Below, in pieces: positions 2,521-8,783 of a stretch of 64,000 nt of DNA. This DNA comes from Bacteroidia bacterium. Lineage in GTDB: Bacteria > Bacteroidota > Bacteroidia > Chitinophagales > UBA2359. The notes beneath the pieces are model-generated. The model made no database searches. It was given only the letters and a program-made list of their open reading frames with translations, and was not told the DNA's origin. The DNA is taken from contig JAUHXA010000017.1 in NCBI GenBank assembly GCA_030427245.1, forward strand, positions 1-64,000, in the 5' to 3' direction. How positions within the stretch are numbered: position 1 is the first letter of the stretch; each line of letters opens with the position of its first letter. The position numbers and the translations under genes are program-made.

Positions 2521-3281
2521 AAAAATCCCACCCCTAAACTTAGGCTGCACCAAATACAAAGTACCCAAAGTCATCAACAACAAAGCGAGGATGATTAAGC
2601 CCCATTCGGAGAGGGTCGGGACATCAGTATTAGAGGAAGCAGGAGGGGTTAGTTGAAACATAAAATCTGCGACTCCATAATGAGCATTTTGTATAGTGCT
2701 TATAGGCATGGTACTCGTATTACAATTATTACAAAAAACCACCTCCTGATATGTCAAATTCGCATTTATTTGGCTATTATTATCACCATAATAGTAGCCT
2801 GTTCCATTAGGAGCATAAAATGTACTGATATACTCAACCCCAGAAGTTAATGTTATAGGAGCTGTTACTGGGAAGTATTCATAGACTCCAACAGTAGAAA
2901 TAGTAATGGTTTGTTGGTGGACTTTAGTAGAAGTACCTCTTTCCCATATGACAAACTCAAACGGTGTGCTGATATCAGGAGTTCTCAGCCCTATTTCGGT
3001 AATAAAGATGGTAGAGTTTGGTATGAAAGCAAATCCTCTTGCTCCCTCGCCACTGTTAAAACCATTCTCGACAGTTAATATCACTTGATCTGTAGCAGAA
3101 AAAGATTGAGCAGAAAGTGCTTGTTGATGAAAAAAAGTGAATAATAAACAAAGTAACCCGAATCTACTGTTGCAGTATTTGAGCAGAAGGTTCAGCTTGG
3201 GCTGTTGGGCTGTTGGGCTGTTGGGCTGTTGGGCTGTTGGGCTGTTGGGCTGAAGTTGGTTGTTTTGTAGATGTTTTTCAT
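2506..3281 (-). CDS. IPTL-CTERM exported protein, array copy 1, out of frame from the family start codon
   Basis: The body encodes a signal-peptide-like hydrophobic helix ending ALSAQS, a beta-rich central domain of about 160 residues of unclear family, and the C-terminal signal: VPTLSEWG, a hydrophobic helix, then Arg-rich FRGGIFEQER. This is the IPTL-CTERM sorting signal, known to be recognised by a dedicated exosortase. By comparison with its neighbours the start is the ATG at 3281 (MKNIYKTTNF). From there, the seven copies of the 8-bp repeat put the frame into a TGA after 29 codons; six or nine copies would join it to the signal peptide. A longer frame begins at a GTG at 3459, but it reads through spacer DNA shared with copy 2, so I consider it spurious. 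Judged phase-OFF in this clone. Confidence 0.8.
3197..3252. repeat. 8-bp tandem repeat TTGGGCTG x7 (phase switch, copy 1)
   Basis: Seven perfect units, minus strand CAGCCCAA. It lies 29 nt inside the reading frame from ATG 3281. In-frame expression of the downstream signal peptide needs a unit number divisible by three; seven gives a premature TGA. Confidence 0.95.
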
Positions 3282-3694: not shown

Positions 3695-4423
3695 CTACCG
3701 TTCTTGTTCAAAACGAGGTTGTTGCAACAAATACAAAGTCCCCAAAGTCATCAACAACAATGCAAGGATGAGTAAGCCCCATTCGGAGAGGGTGGGGATG
3801 GACGCGGGATTGGAGGAAGAACATGTTTCAGGTTGAACAGTCATAGAAATGAATTGTATAAGGTCATTTGTAACACCTCCACCAAAATCCGAAGTAACCG
3901 TAATGGAGGTATTTGCTGTAATACAAATTTGATTAGAAAAGTTATGGCTTCCTAAAGATGAAAATCCACTCTCTATTGTTGTAGAACTCCCATCTGTAAA
4001 TGTCAGAGATTCATCTCCTTCCATACTACTAATTCCATAGGCTATATTATATGAAAGAAGTTGTACATCAGCAGAAAACATCATTGTGAACTCACTACAA
4101 TCTCCTAACGCCCCACCAATAGCAGTGTTAGCTAAAACAGCTAGTCCATCACCATCTGTCTGAAAATTATTATCAGGCTGCTCATTACTAAGCGTCAATG
4201 TTACTCCTGATACCGTCTTTGTAATTGTACTTTGATTATTATCCAAACCATTGAAAGTAAAGGCAATCGGTTGAGCCAATACAGAATTGGAGGAAAGAAA
4301 GAGTAAGCAAATCAAGCAAAAGGAAAGTAGCCACTTCAATTTTAACTTACCTTTTTGGGCTGTTGGGCTGTTGGGCTGTTGGGCTGTTGGGCTGAAGTTG
4401 GTTGTTTTGTAGAAATTGTTCAT
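3695..4423 (-). CDS. IPTL-CTERM exported protein, array copy 2, in frame (phase ON)
   Basis: 242 residues from ATG 4423. Order: leader MNNFYKTTNF, a repeat-encoded SPTAQQPN segment, basic GKLKLKW, signal helix ending SVLAQP, then a beta-rich domain of about 160 residues with STITKTVSGVTLTL and two short cysteine-containing segments, and the IPTL-CTERM signal SIPTLSEWG plus helix plus RFEQER. Five 8-bp units keep the leader in frame with the signal peptide. The central domain is paralogous to copy 4 (STITKTVSGV shared), but the flanks are more alike than the middle. Expected to be exported, sorted by an exosortase (not in this window) and surface-exposed. No enzymatic motif is visible. Confidence 0.88.
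   Translation of the reverse strand: MNNFYKTTNFSPTAQQPNSPTAQKGKLKLKWLLSFCLICLLFLSSNSVLAQPIAFTFNGLDNNQSTITKTVSGVTLTLSNEQPDNNFQTDGDGLAVLANTAIGGALGDCSEFTMMFSADVQLLSYNIAYGISSMEGDESLTFTDGSSTTIESGFSSLGSHNFSNQICITANTSITVTSDFGGGVTNDLIQFISMTVQPETCSSSNPASIPTLSEWGLLILALLLMTLGTLYLLQQPRFEQER
4355..4394. repeat. 8-bp tandem repeat TTGGGCTG x5 (phase switch, copy 2)
   Basis: Five perfect units starting 29 nt after the ATG at 4423. 29 + 40 nt is exactly 23 codons, after which AAA GGT AAG continues in frame to the signal helix. Gain or loss of one unit would frameshift. Confidence 0.95.
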
Positions 4424-4450: not shown

Positions 4451-4689
4451 AAATTAGTGGGAATATCCCCTATTATATACTGTTGCGTTTTTTGGGAAAA
4501 CATTAACAGTTGGGGTGGAGAAAAGTGACATTTTTATTTATATTATTTGTATTTGATTGATTTTTGGTGTAAATATAGGGTGAATTAGAATATGCGACAC
4601 CTAGCAAATGCGACACTTATAAATTAATGTTTTTGTTTGGGTCAGAAAAATGTCATTTTTTTTGATTTTGTGCCGTTCAAATGTCGCCG
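4451..4689. repeat. Direct repeat with 3311-3550; spacer before array copy 2
   Basis: This is most of the 361-bp gap 4424-4784. It holds the palindrome GGGAATATcCCC at 4459-4470 and the duplicated block that matches 3311-3550. Beyond 4689 it ends in an inverted GTCGCC / GGCGAA motif and then unique DNA before vapB. No gene is seen in the gap. Confidence 0.85.
4459..4470. promoter_or_regulatory. Conserved upstream palindrome (copy 2)
   Basis: GGGAATATCCCC, one mismatch from the perfect palindrome of copy 1, 36 bp upstream of ATG 4423. Confidence 0.45.
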
Positions 4690-4751
4690 AGTTTGGAAAA
4701 CGTCGGCGAATTTTCACTGATTTGGAGGAATTTTACTTCTCGAAATGTATG

Positions 4752-4759
4752 TATATTTG
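4752..4759 (+). promoter_or_regulatory. Bacteroidota -7 promoter element of the vapBC-like operon
   Basis: TATATTTG fits TAnnTTTG and lies 25 nt before the vapB-like ATG. A convincing -33 TTG at normal spacing is not seen. Confidence 0.45.
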
Positions 4760-4784
4760 TAGAGTTACATCAAAAACAAGTAAA

Positions 4785-5069
4785 ATGGAAAATAACAGCA
4801 ATATAGCTTCTTTAACTGCTGACGACAATGTAGTTAGTGTTTATATGAGGCTCTTGAATCATTTGAGCATTGAAGCAAAACTAAAATTGATTGCCAAACT
4901 TACAGAAAGCCTTAGTGTGGATTTTAAGGAAAAAACTTCTTCAACGGTTGAAAAGAAATCTTGGAAAAGTTTGGCAGGAGCGTGGAAAGATATGCCTGAT
5001 GATTTGGAAGACCAAATTCGGGCTTCTCGTGTTTCTAAAAGTGAAGTTCCAAATTTTGACGATGTATGA
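4785..5069 (+). CDS. VapB-like antitoxin
   Basis: 94 residues from ATG 4785 (an upstream in-frame ATG at 4650 lies in repeat-derived spacer and is rejected). Helical N-terminal half (YMRLLNHLSIEAKLKLIAKL) followed by a linker and a W-rich C-terminal segment (KSWKSLAGAWKDMPDDLEDQIRAS). That tail, with Ser/Thr then a WKDMPDDL-like motif, is typical of small antitoxins that bind PIN toxins. The stop codon overlaps the toxin start (ATGA, 5066-5069), the usual translational coupling of vapBC. It sits inside the IPTL gene array. Confidence 0.75.
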   Translation: MENNSNIASLTADDNVVSVYMRLLNHLSIEAKLKLIAKLTESLSVDFKEKTSSTVEKKSWKSLAGAWKDMPDDLEDQIRASRVSKSEVPNFDDV

Positions 5070-5437
5070 AAGGCTATTTGTTAGATACAGATATTTGCAT
5101 CTTTTTTCTCAAAGACAAGTTCCATTTGACGGAAAAAATTGATGCAGTGGGAATAGACAAATGTTTTGTTTCTGCGATAACAATTGGCGAACTGCTCTAT
5201 GGCGCAGAGTTTAGCAGTGATTACGAAAAGCATGTTCAAGAAGTGGATTTTTTTGAGGATAATTTTACCGTTGTTCCCATCTATGAGGCACTTAGAGTGT
5301 ATGCCAAAGAGAAAGCAAGATTAAGAAGGTTGGGAACTTTGATTATGGTGACTCGAAATTACAAACATTTCAGCAAAATTGATGGTATTCAATTGGAGGA
5401 TTGGACGAAAAAAGAAGATAATGAGTTTATTATCTGA
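5066..5437 (+). CDS. VapC-like PIN-domain toxin with internal deletion
   Basis: 123 residues. The N-terminal PIN motif is intact (YLLDTDICIFFLK, first catalytic Asp), as is the SAITIGELLYGAE segment with the conserved Glu. Family members then read GTxIDDFDLLIGATA...LxxVTRNxKHF. Here GTLI passes directly into MVTRNYKHF, so about 16 residues carrying the third and fourth acidic residues are missing without a frameshift. The C-terminus (KIDGIQLEDWT) is normal. Family knowledge says these acidic residues bind the catalytic metal, so I infer a non-cleaving toxin, possibly kept for autoregulation with VapB. Confidence 0.8.
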   Translation: MKGYLLDTDICIFFLKDKFHLTEKIDAVGIDKCFVSAITIGELLYGAEFSSDYEKHVQEVDFFEDNFTVVPIYEALRVYAKEKARLRRLGTLIMVTRNYKHFSKIDGIQLEDWTKKEDNEFII

Positions 5438-5600: not shown

Positions 5601-6719
5601 CTAGCGTTCTTGTTCAAAAATCCCACCCCTAAACTTCGGCTGCACCAAATACAAAGTCCCCAAAGTCATCAACAACAAAGCAAGAATAATCAAGCCCCAT
5701 TCGGAGAGGGTGGGGACATCTGTGGAAATAGAAGTAGCTGCCGCAAAAATCTGTATGCGATTATTAGATCGGTCTGCCACCAAAATATCTCCATTCGAGG
5801 CAATAGCTATACCAGTGGGTTGGTTAAACTGTCCATCTCCAGTGCCATAACTTCCAAATTTACTTTTGTAAGTACCATTGCTATCAAAAATCTGTATGCG
5901 ATGATTATATTCGTCTGCCACCAAAATATCTCCATTCGAGGCAATAGCTATACCAGTGGGTTGGTCAAACTCTCCATCTCCAGCGCCAAAACTTCCAAAT
6001 TTACTTTTGTAATTGCCATTGCTATCAAAAATCTGTATGCGATCATTATCAGTCTCTGCCACCAAAATATCTCCATTCGAGGCAATAGCTATACCAGTGG
6101 GTTGGTAAAACTCTCCATTTGCAGTGCCATAACTTCCAAATTGATTTTTGTAAGTGCCATTGCTATCAAAAATCTGTATGCGATCATTATTAGCGTCTGC
6201 CACCAAAATATCTCCATTCGAGGCAATAGCTATACCAGTGGGTTGGTAAAACTCTCCATTTGCAGTGCCATAACTTCCAAATTGACTTTTGTAAGTGCCA
6301 TTGCTATCAAAAATCTGTATGCGATCATTACCAGTGTCTGCCACCAAAATATCTCCATTCGAGGCAATAGCTATACCTTCGGGGTAGTTAAACTGTCCAT
6401 TTGCAGAGCCACTACTTCCAAATTTACTTTTGTAATTGCCATTGCTATCAAAAATCTGTATGCGATGACTATATTGGTCTGCCACCAAAATATCTCCATT
6501 CGAGGCAATAGCTATACCAGTGGGGTAGTAAAACTCTCCATTTGCAGAGCCATTACTTCCAAATTGACTTTTGTAAGTAGGGTTAATTTGAGCATTTAAA
6601 CTATAGGTTGATAAAAAGCAGAAGCAAAGCAAAACAAAACAAGTTAAGGGTGCTAGCCATTTTAGACTATTTTTTTTGGCTCTTGGGCTGAAATTCGTTG
6701 TTTTGTGGAAATTGTTCAT
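5601..6719 (-). CDS. NHL-repeat (beta-propeller) protein with IPTL-CTERM signal, array copy 3
   Basis: 372 residues from ATG 6719. Leader MNNFHKTTNFSPRAKK, signal helix ending SLNAQI, then six tandem 47-residue units (about residues 49-330), each with PTGIAIASNGDILVAD and RIQIFDSNG. These are NHL repeats, which fold as a six-bladed propeller. The C-terminus is VPTLSEWG, a hydrophobic helix and FRGGIFEQER, the IPTL-CTERM signal. The family 8-bp repeat is present only as two degenerate units, so the frame is fixed ON. The NHL units are almost identical at DNA level, which suggests recent amplification. Probable surface-anchored binding protein; ligand unknown. Confidence 0.93.
   Translation of the reverse strand: MNNFHKTTNFSPRAKKNSLKWLAPLTCFVLLCFCFLSTYSLNAQINPTYKSQFGSNGSANGEFYYPTGIAIASNGDILVADQYSHRIQIFDSNGNYKSKFGSSGSANGQFNYPEGIAIASNGDILVADTGNDRIQIFDSNGTYKSQFGSYGTANGEFYQPTGIAIASNGDILVADANNDRIQIFDSNGTYKNQFGSYGTANGEFYQPTGIAIASNGDILVAETDNDRIQIFDSNGNYKSKFGSFGAGDGEFDQPTGIAIASNGDILVADEYNHRIQIFDSNGTYKSKFGSYGTGDGQFNQPTGIAIASNGDILVADRSNNRIQIFAAATSISTDVPTLSEWGLIILALLLMTLGTLYLVQPKFRGGIFEQER
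5730..6575 (-). repeat. Six tandem 141-bp repeats encoding NHL blades
   Basis: Period 141 bp (47 codons). Blocks such as ATATCTCCATTCGAGGCAAT recur exactly in every unit; variation clusters in the few codons after VAD and around the FGS loop. Confidence 0.93.
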
Positions 6720-6762
6720 AAGAAAATAAGATTTAAAATTTTGAATGAGAAAATAAATTAGT

Positions 6763-6775
6763 GGGAATTGTTCCC
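6763..6775. promoter_or_regulatory. Conserved upstream palindrome (copy 3)
   Basis: GGGAATTGTTCCC, 44 bp upstream of ATG 6719; same relative position as in the other array genes. Confidence 0.45.
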
Positions 6776-6968
6776 TATTATAGCTTTCCGTTTCTGGGGA
6801 AAACCTAAACCAAACCTAAGAAATATTTATTTCTGAAATTGAAAAATGTGACGAGTGGTAGCTATAATGTGGCGAATGGTTATAAGCTTTTTGTTATGTT
6901 AAGAAATATTTCTGTTTTTGGAATGTCGGTAAACAGATACTTGCTGTGTAGATTTTATTGGAGATATT

Positions 6969-7070
6969 TTACTTGTGGCACATGAGGTGGAAGGAAATCA
7001 CCTGAATTTGTTTGATGCGCCGAATGGGGAGATTTTTGCGAGGAAATTGCAGGGGGTGTTGGATAAGTGA
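6969..7070 (+). pseudogene. NRPS thioesterase 3' fragment (relic 1)
   Basis: 34 codons reading LLVAHEVEGNHLNLFDAPNG then EIFARKLQGVLDK and a TGA. This matches the end of the NRPS at the window start (VVHDVEGNHLNLFDEPNG, EVFARKLQGVLD). There is no start codon or upstream domain, so it is a remnant carried along by duplication. It ends in DK-stop, unlike the NRPS, whose tail is LNKNS. Confidence 0.9.
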
Positions 7071-7149
7071 TGATTGGTTGCTGTTTGTCGTTCAAATGTC
7101 GCCAAGTTTTTCAAACGTTGGCGAATTTTCACTGGTGTTGGGAATTTAA

Positions 7150-7195
7150 AAAGCCCTATCTACATTCCTTCAATGCAGATAGGGCTTTTTTTTTT
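7150..7195. terminator. Bidirectional terminator, array copy 4
   Basis: AAAAAGCCCTATCT / AGATAGGGCTTTTT around ACATTCCTTCAATGC; U-tracts on both strands. Serves the minus-strand gene ending at 7266. Confidence 0.85.
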
Positions 7196-7204
7196 GCTCG
7201 TTTT

Positions 7205-7280
7205 GAACACGAACTCCTAGATAGAAAGGAACTCACTGTACGTGTGGATTTTAGTTCTTTTTCATCTAGCGTTCTTGTTC
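7205..7280. repeat. Imperfect inverted repeat spanning the IPTL gene stop codon (copy 4)
   Basis: GAACACGAACTCCTAGAT plus AGAAAGGAACT pairs with AGTTCTTTTTCATCTAGCG plus TTCTTGTTC. Same family as 2446-2520. Confidence 0.8.
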
Positions 7281-8007
7281 AAAAATCCCACCCCTAAACT
7301 TCGGCTGCAACAAATACAAAGTACCCAAAGTCATGAACAACAAAGCGAGGATGAGTAAGCCCCATTCGGAGAGGGTAGGGATGCCTGCGGGAGCAGGTGC
7401 AGGGGATGAAGGTGAAGATTCGACAGTGATGGTAATGAACTGTAAAATGTCAACATCTGTAGTAGAATTAACATCGACACCACCTGCCATTACATTTATC
7501 GTTTCGTTTGCCGCAACACAGAATTGAGTTGCAAAATTTCGACTGTCTGTTGTAAAAGGAGAATTTTCTATACTTGTTGAAGTGCCATTTGTAAAAGTTA
7601 GGGATTCATCATTATCAAGTTCTTGGACAAAGCCTACATTATATGAAAGAAGCTGTACTTCGCTAGAGAAACTTATGTCAAAACCATCCGTATCTGCATT
7701 AGGAGGTGGAGTAGTGGCATTCCACAGTACGCCGAGTCCATCAGTATCAGCGTAGAATGCATTGCTAGGTTGTTGATTATTAAGGGTCATCGTCACTCCT
7801 GATACTGTTTTGGTAATCGTACTTTGATTATCATCCGAAGCACCAAAAGTAAAGGTAATCGGTTGAGCCAATACAAAATTGGAGTAAAGAGAGAGTAAGC
7901 AAATCAAGCAAAAGGAAAGTAGCCACTTCAATTTTAATTTACTTTGTTGGGCTGTTGGGCTGTTGGGCTGTTGGGCTGAAATTCGTTGTTTTGTGGAAAT
8001 TGTTCAT
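7266..8007 (-). CDS. IPTL-CTERM exported protein, array copy 4, out of frame (phase OFF)
   Basis: The family start is ATG 8007 (MNNFHKTTNFSPTAQQPN), but with four 8-bp units the frame hits TAA after 22 codons. With five units it would continue QSKLKLKWLLSF into the signal helix ending FVLAQP. The downstream body (7266-7931, 221 residues if the TTG at 7931 were used) has a beta-rich domain paralogous to copy 2 (STITKTVSGVTMTL) and the signal GIPTLSEWG plus helix plus FRGGIFEQER. There is no in-frame ATG before the signal peptide. I read this as an intact gene switched off by repeat number, not a decayed one, because the body has no other lesion. Confidence 0.85.
7947..7978. repeat. 8-bp tandem repeat TTGGGCTG x4 (phase switch, copy 4)
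   Basis: Four perfect units. 29 + 32 nt leaves the frame one base off, giving ACA AAG TAA. One more unit restores the frame. Confidence 0.95.
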
Positions 8008-8050
8008 AAGAAAACAAGATTTAAAATTTTGAATGAGAAAATGAATTAGT

Positions 8051-8063
8051 GGGAATTGTTCCC
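8051..8063. promoter_or_regulatory. Conserved upstream palindrome (copy 4)
   Basis: GGGAATTGTTCCC, 44 bp before ATG 8007. Confidence 0.45.
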
Positions 8064-8256
8064 TATTATAGCTTTCCGTTTCTGGGGAAAACCTAAACCA
8101 AACCTAAGAAATATTTATTTCTGAAATTGAAAAATGTGACGAGTGGTAGCTATAATGTGGCGAATGGTTATAAGCTTTTTGTTATGTTAAGAAATATTTC
8201 TGTTTTTGGAATGTCGGTAAACAGATACTTGCTGTGTAGATTTTATTGGAGATATT

Positions 8257-8358
8257 TTACTTGTGGCACATGAGGTGGAAGGAAATCACCTGAATTTGTT
8301 TGATGCGCCGAATGGGGAGATTTTTGCGAGGAAATTGCAGGGGGTGTTGGATAAGTGA
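8257..8358 (+). pseudogene. NRPS thioesterase 3' fragment (relic 2)
   Basis: Identical in content to the relic at 6969-7070 (34 codons ending VLDK-stop), 1288 bp further on within the duplicated spacer. Confidence 0.9.
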
Positions 8359-8436
8359 TGATTGGTTGCTGTTTGTCGTTCAAATGTCGCCAAGTTTTTC
8401 AAACGTTGGCGAATTTTCACTGGTGTTGGGAATTTA

Positions 8437-8482
8437 AAAAGCCCTATCTACATTCCTTCAATGCAGATAGGGCTTTTTTTTT
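8437..8482. terminator. Bidirectional terminator, array copy 5
   Basis: Same AAAAAGCCCTATCT / AGATAGGGCTTTTT hairpin as at 7150. Confidence 0.85.
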
Positions 8483-8491
8483 GCTCGTTTT

Positions 8492-8566
8492 GAACAAGAA
8501 CTCCTAGATAGAAAGGAACTCATTGTATGTACAGTGAGCGTTCCTTTTCATCTAGCGTTCTTGTTC
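8492..8566. repeat. Best-preserved copy of the array palindrome
   Basis: Left arm GAACAAGAACTCCTAGAT plus AGAAAGGAAC, right arm GTTCCTTTTCATCTAGCG plus TTCTTGTTC; the arms pair with few mismatches. Confidence 0.85.
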
Positions 8567-8783
8567 AAAAATCCCACCTCTAAACTTCGGCTGCAACAAA
8601 TACAAAGTCCCCAAAGTCATCAACAACAGAGCGAGGATGATTAAGCCCCATTCGGAGAGGGTGGGGGCAGAGAGATTGGAAGGGAATTGGATAGTAACTT
8701 GAAAATCAAGGTTTCCATTAGTCCAATATTGATTTTGATAAGAAGGGTTCCCTTGTACAAAATGCCCATCTGTGTATTTATTT
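8552..8783 (-). pseudogene. 5'-truncated IPTL-CTERM gene (array copy 5)
   Basis: 77 codons: TDGHFVQGNPSYQNQYWTNG, then a strand-rich stretch, APTLSEWG, a hydrophobic helix and FRGGIFEQER. There is no leader, 8-bp repeat or signal peptide. It begins directly after the stop codon of the helicase gene and is in the same reading frame as it, so the array appears to have been cut off by the chromosomal junction at the helicase 3' end. The remaining sequence resembles the end of copy 1. Confidence 0.85.

Follow-up and report, generated by a model that had tools for sequence, protein, structure and literature searches.

A non-triplet octamer array sets the reading frame of an intact IPTL-CTERM gene: a probable repeat-slippage switch in a member of the Bacteroidia

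Is a reading frame that stops straight after a short tandem repeat the remnant of a decaying gene, or the start of an intact gene that is out of frame at its present number of repeat units? The question is raised by copy 4, a minus-strand gene in the window, the 64,000-nt stretch of a Bacteroidia bacterium genome analyzed here. Copy 4 begins at ATG 8007 with the leader MNNFHKTTNFS (7979 to 8007), whose 29 nt lie ahead of an array of four GCCCAACA units (7945 to 7978); a nearly identical leader opens copy 3, which carries no array and is in frame from ATG 6719. The copy 4 units are 100% identical, and the array measures 34 bp (about 4.2 copies of its period according to TRF), a length that is not a multiple of 3 bp. 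At this unit number the ATG frame is translated as MNNFHKTTNFSPTAQQPNSPTK and closed by a TAA at 7941 to 7939, directly after the array. The body of the gene, read as QSKLKLKWLLSFCLICLLSLYSNFVLAQ..., lies in another frame, which stays open for 226 codons between the array's end and a stop at 7266 (7266 to 7944) with no internal stop codon or frameshift, and its product is 55 to 59% identical to that of copy 2. The body encodes SKLKLKWLLSFCLICLLSLYSNFVLA-Q, then a core about 160 residues long, and finally an IPTL-CTERM tail. The signal peptide, (K)WLLSFCLICLLSLYSNFVLA{{|}}Q (7866 to 7931), was recognized from its sequence, with a putative cleavage site, and the corresponding region of copy 2 is predicted to form an N-terminal helix. 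The tail (7266 to 7388) consists of IPTLSEWG, a hydrophobic helix and a basic end, and it scores above the cut-off for both PF18203 and TIGR04174.

When the array was varied from 1 to 9 units in silico, the copy 4 ATG joined the body at 2, 5, and 8 units only, and TTGAAGTGG lies 76 nt from the ATG in copy 4 but 84 nt from it in copy 2, which is in frame, a difference of exactly one unit. Copy 4 shows two marks of a contingency locus, in that a perfect, non-triplet short tandem repeat lies within the 5' part of the reading frame and in that unit number sets whether an otherwise intact open reading frame is in frame; it also has the marks of an IPTL-CTERM sorted protein, in that an N-terminal signal peptide is combined with the C-terminal IPTLSEWG, helix, and basic tail. 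The sequence-only reading had described copy 4 as an intact gene one unit away from being in frame, with a four-unit ATG frame that ends right after the array and no other lesion in the body. Translation bore out the first stop, a fifth unit (or a change to two or eight) restores the frame, and the gaps in the alignment of the body with copy 2 are all multiples of 3; that description proved correct in every particular that could be tested.

We consider it probable that a repeat-slippage switch holds copy 4 in its OFF state and that the gene, itself intact, encodes a secreted, sortase-type (IPTL-CTERM) envelope protein. The octamer contains no stop codon in any of its three frames, each of which encodes the same eight-residue cycle, SPTAQQPN, so that a ribosome would always cross the array and the choice between ON and OFF would be made just after it. 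In the proposed mechanism, slippage of DNA polymerase (slipped-strand mispairing) would add or remove one array unit. ON cells would make and anchor, probably in the envelope, a protein composed of a long n-region of SPTAQQPN repeats, a Sec signal peptide, a beta-rich core, and the IPTL tail, and OFF cells would make only a 22-residue peptide. The copies would switch independently, leaving a population mixed in its surface types. The arrays are short (4 to 7 units), and switching may therefore be slow. Because the array and the core are missing from the other genomes of the order that were searched, conservation gives no backing to selection for switching, and because most arrays in the genome lie outside genes, slippage-prone repeats also arise where they have no frame to switch.

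The leader is common to five genes in this genome, copies 1 to 4 and a paralogue on another contig (C134). Copy 1 (minus strand) has seven units at 3197 to 3252, which place ATG 3281 out of frame; it would be in frame at 3, 6, or 9 units, and its body is open to 2506. Copy 2 (minus strand) has five units at 4355 to 4394 and is in frame from ATG 4423 (open reading frame 3695 to 4423). Copy 3 (minus strand, 5601 to 6719) combines the array-less, in-frame leader with an NHL beta-propeller core and an IPTL tail, and the C134 paralogue (ATG 6971) is in frame with three units of a variant array, CCCCAACA. Unit numbers in copies 1, 2, and 4 are thus 7, 5, and 4, and their states are OFF, ON, and OFF; this variation is seen between paralogues only, the genome being the single one of its genus among those searched. 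A remnant of a further copy, reduced to its IPTL tail, lies beside uvrD (8552 to 8669, minus strand). IPTL-CTERM genes number 36 in the genome as a whole, which also encodes one XrtH-like exosortase protein (2.5e-22), the match to which scores 81.7 bits against a curated cut-off of 86. Upstream of copy 4, at 8051 to 8070 on the minus strand, a promoter-like -10 element, TATAATA, is joined to the palindrome GGGAACAATTCCC, and both are conserved in copies 1 to 4, where they may have a regulatory function. The palindrome just after the -10-like box, TATAATAGGGAA(C)A/TATTCCC, at 8051 to 8070 and at homologous sites in copies 1 to 3, is a possible shared operator.

Several other features of these loci deserve mention. 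The core of copy 3 (5744 to 6578) is built of about six tandem units of 141 bp that each encode a single NHL repeat and share 83 to 92% DNA identity, which suggests that the propeller blades were amplified recently. On the plus strand at 4650 to 5437, inside the IPTL cluster, a small gene and a PIN-domain gene overlap at their ends and are likely to form a toxin-antitoxin pair. The C134 leader paralogue is split by an element of about 214 bp (C134 7436 to 7649) with inverted ends, TGAACGGAAA; the genome has 17 copies with 100% identity across 216 bp, as well as a related set at 76 to 88% identity. The element is MITE-like and was recently active.

The cluster is organized as nearly constant blocks around variable cores. 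A 706-bp block (7963 to 8666) is 97% identical to 6675 to 7380; it comprises the IPTL tail of the upstream gene, the intergenic and promoter regions, and the next leader, and it ends exactly at the array, which sits at the border of near-constant block and variable core. Comparison of copy 2 with copy 4 shows zero synonymous differences in the signal peptide and a pS of 0.61 in the core. The position of the array at this border and the contrast in synonymous change suggest that leaders and tails are homogenized by recombination and that cores diverge or are exchanged. The sequence AAAAAGCCCTATCTACATTCCTTCAATGCAGATAGGGCTTTTT, at 7148 to 7190 and 8436 to 8478, forms a strong, two-sided terminator-like palindrome 3' of these genes.

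The arrays exceed chance expectation in the window, although others exist elsewhere in the genome. Those of copies 1, 2, and 4 are the only perfect arrays with a period of 4 to 12 and at least 3 copies in the 64 kb, and 100 Markov-1 simulations produced no array of period 8. A census of 2.17 Mb (29% of the genome) found 25 perfect non-triplet arrays of at least 24 bp, mostly outside genes. Five of the 25 lie between an ATG and the hydrophobic stretch of a signal peptide: those of copies 1, 2, and 4, that of the C134 paralogue, and that of an unrelated gene on contig C97. Two independent families among 22 arrays gives a P value of 3e-4 under a strict criterion picked post hoc; under a laxer criterion, with paralogues counted once, the enrichment is not significant (P = 0.14). 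This enrichment lends moderate support to a switch. The C97 gene begins with the ATG of MIRFKQF, followed by (ATCACGC)x4 at C97 33074 to 33101 (L140 13074 to 13101, minus strand), a hydrophobic region, LIVILFSLSSDIMAQ, and 767 open codons that end in a Por_Secre_tail (T9SS). Such tails, and the style of the signal peptides, point to the Bacteroidota. The C97 gene is out of frame at its four units and would be in frame at 2, 5, or 8, and the chance that it would remain intact at 1% neutral divergence is 0.03. At the site of its array, relatives in the same family (L258, L260, and L262) have ordinary signal peptides. As a heptamer case independent of the octamer family, this gene is the strongest new evidence that the switch is real, and the existence of further genes that are OFF yet intact, copy 1 and the C97 gene, favors a switch. 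Two of the five array genes are ON and three OFF, near the 1:2 expected under free drift of unit number. More tentatively, secreted proteins of two or more export classes (IPTL-CTERM and T9SS) might be phase variable, each through its own 7- or 8-bp array in the n-region, with leaders and tails passed on as constant modules around exchangeable cores. Elsewhere, 7- or 8-bp arrays lie 3 to 47 nt before the starts of other genes (L130 14585 to 14648, L129 10477 to 10503, and L120 8549 to 8575) and are possible spacing-type switches.

In the contig collection with this genome left out, the core of copies 2 and 4 had no homologues, and when 299 genomes from the order were searched (among them 20 from the family, this one included) it was found in these two copies only, so that no orthologue with another unit number is available. 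In the same 299 genomes the octamer array was absent outside this genome, and none of the 26 IPTL loci examined in relatives carried an array of this kind close to the motif (a hexamer was present at one). The array also occurs in 47 stretches of unrelated bacteria, in contexts too varied to give a specific lead. A structure prediction for copy 2, made with only two sequences (mean pLDDT of 62), has a beta-rich core flanked by helices at both ends. Its matches in the PDB were mostly beta-sandwiches resembling carbohydrate-binding modules (TM 0.2 to 0.3, rmsd 8 to 10 A), and such weak matches do not allow a function to be named.

The sequence-only reading had also argued that a decayed gene should carry more defects. 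Half of the synonymous and a quarter of the nonsynonymous sites differ between copies 2 and 4, giving a pN/pS of 0.53; together with the triplet-only gaps, this indicates that through most of its evolution, before its present OFF state, the copy 4 body was constrained at the protein level. In simulated neutral decay, with 10% indels assumed, the probability that copy 4 would be intact fell from 0.43 at 1% divergence to 0.17 at 2% and to about 0 at 10%, and the joint survival of the copy 1 and copy 4 bodies dropped quickly with divergence. Old decay is thereby ruled out, as had been argued, but a slip within the last 1 to 2% of divergence still fits the simulation, and a recent one-off event is therefore possible. 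Copies 4 and 1 might then be young pseudogenes in a redundant family, whose return to frame would have no role. Other family members do decay, as the 3' remnant in the locus at 8552 to 8669 and the split C134 paralogue attest, and the array is kept in none of the relatives searched. We nevertheless regard such an accident as unlikely: three OFF genes are intact across two unrelated families, one of them with 767 codons, and slips are inherently reversible, so that an accident would differ from a switch only in frequency and usefulness.

Copy 4 might also not be off at all. A TTG at 7929 to 7931 (minus strand), 7 nt past the TAA, is a candidate weak start or restart that would give MKWLLSF..., a textbook short signal peptide, and its spacing from the stop suits reinitiation; the array would then lie in a translated leader or 5' untranslated region and tune expression. 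In Xanthomonas and Nostoc, heptamer arrays with the G-rich strand non-coding are found upstream of open reading frames, often in four units (PMC4692102), and the G-rich strand of the copy 4 array is likewise non-coding, with four GGG runs. However, copies 1 and 3 and the C134 paralogue have no start codon at that site, copy 2 and the C134 paralogue are in frame from the ATG, and the only start codons in frame downstream of the C97 array fall inside the hydrophobic stretch. Because the TTG is not conserved, and because copy 3, which has the same leader as copy 4 and matches it at 97% in the upstream region, can start only at ATG 6719, ribosomes should start at ATG 8007. Translation from TTG 7931 is thus less likely, and we think it improbable that copy 4 is on by this route; a leaky restart is conceivable in copies 2 and 4 only. 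An error of sequencing or assembly in the unit number is very improbable. Near-identical flanks such as the 706-bp block can cause repeats to be misassembled, but ordinary reads are longer than a 34-bp array, copy 3 lacks an array that could be confused with it, copy 1 and the C97 gene are OFF as well, and the genome is 100% complete and 0.43% contaminated.

The mechanism proposed in the slippage-switch reading is already known from opa (PMC3960869) and from other simple sequence repeat (SSR) contingency loci (PMC2651432, PMC11868660), and it is the setting that appears to have been little described. In Neisseria opa genes, CTCTT pentamers lie in the leader-peptide code and their number sets the frame (PMC3960869). 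Like opa, the octamer family would be a multi-copy surface family with a separate non-triplet array per copy in the signal-peptide code and recombination between copies (PMC3960869); unlike opa, it has an 8-bp unit before rather than within the hydrophobic core, only 4 to 7 units, and IPTL-CTERM proteins of another phylum, and its switching is a prediction from sequence. Haemophilus influenzae has heptamer and octamer tracts that, as long-unit SSRs, shift the frame of surface genes or sit upstream of them, but its reported octamers precede genes and are not part of signal-peptide code (PMC2651432). In pil1 of Streptococcus gallolyticus, the number of GCAGA repeats fixes where a leader peptide stops, which is comparable, but there a terminator hairpin precedes a separate gene (PMC3894217), whereas the leader of copy 4 belongs to the gene, as its first part. 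Attenuation of the pil1 type was rejected for copy 4, in which the signal peptide follows the array directly, with no hairpin between array and gene; no terminator hairpin was found on the minus strand of 7000 to 8700, and the leader RNA folded no better than shuffled sequences. The G4-forming heptamer arrays of Xanthomonas and Nostoc resemble ours in the non-coding position of the G-rich strand near open reading frame starts and in the frequency of four units, but they avoid coding sequence (PMC4692102), whereas the arrays described here lie inside the reading frame. As for IPTL-CTERM/XrtH substrates, the tail exceeds the PF18203 cut-off and the 36 genes are accompanied by an XrtH-like protein, although the latter falls under its curated cut-off. 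We found no report of repeat switches in IPTL-CTERM proteins, a weak negative, since the literature searched included no paper naming IPTL-CTERM and exosortase together.

Most documented cases of repeat-based frame switching come from host-adapted pathogens. The switches described in Bacteroides are mostly DNA inversions (PMC11868660). Gene callers are liable to label OFF copies like those described here as pseudogenes or to assign them wrong starts. If the reading favored here is correct, opa-like switching would operate in the exosortase and T9SS secretomes of a Bacteroidota lineage without a known host, and evasion of phages or predators may be what drives it.
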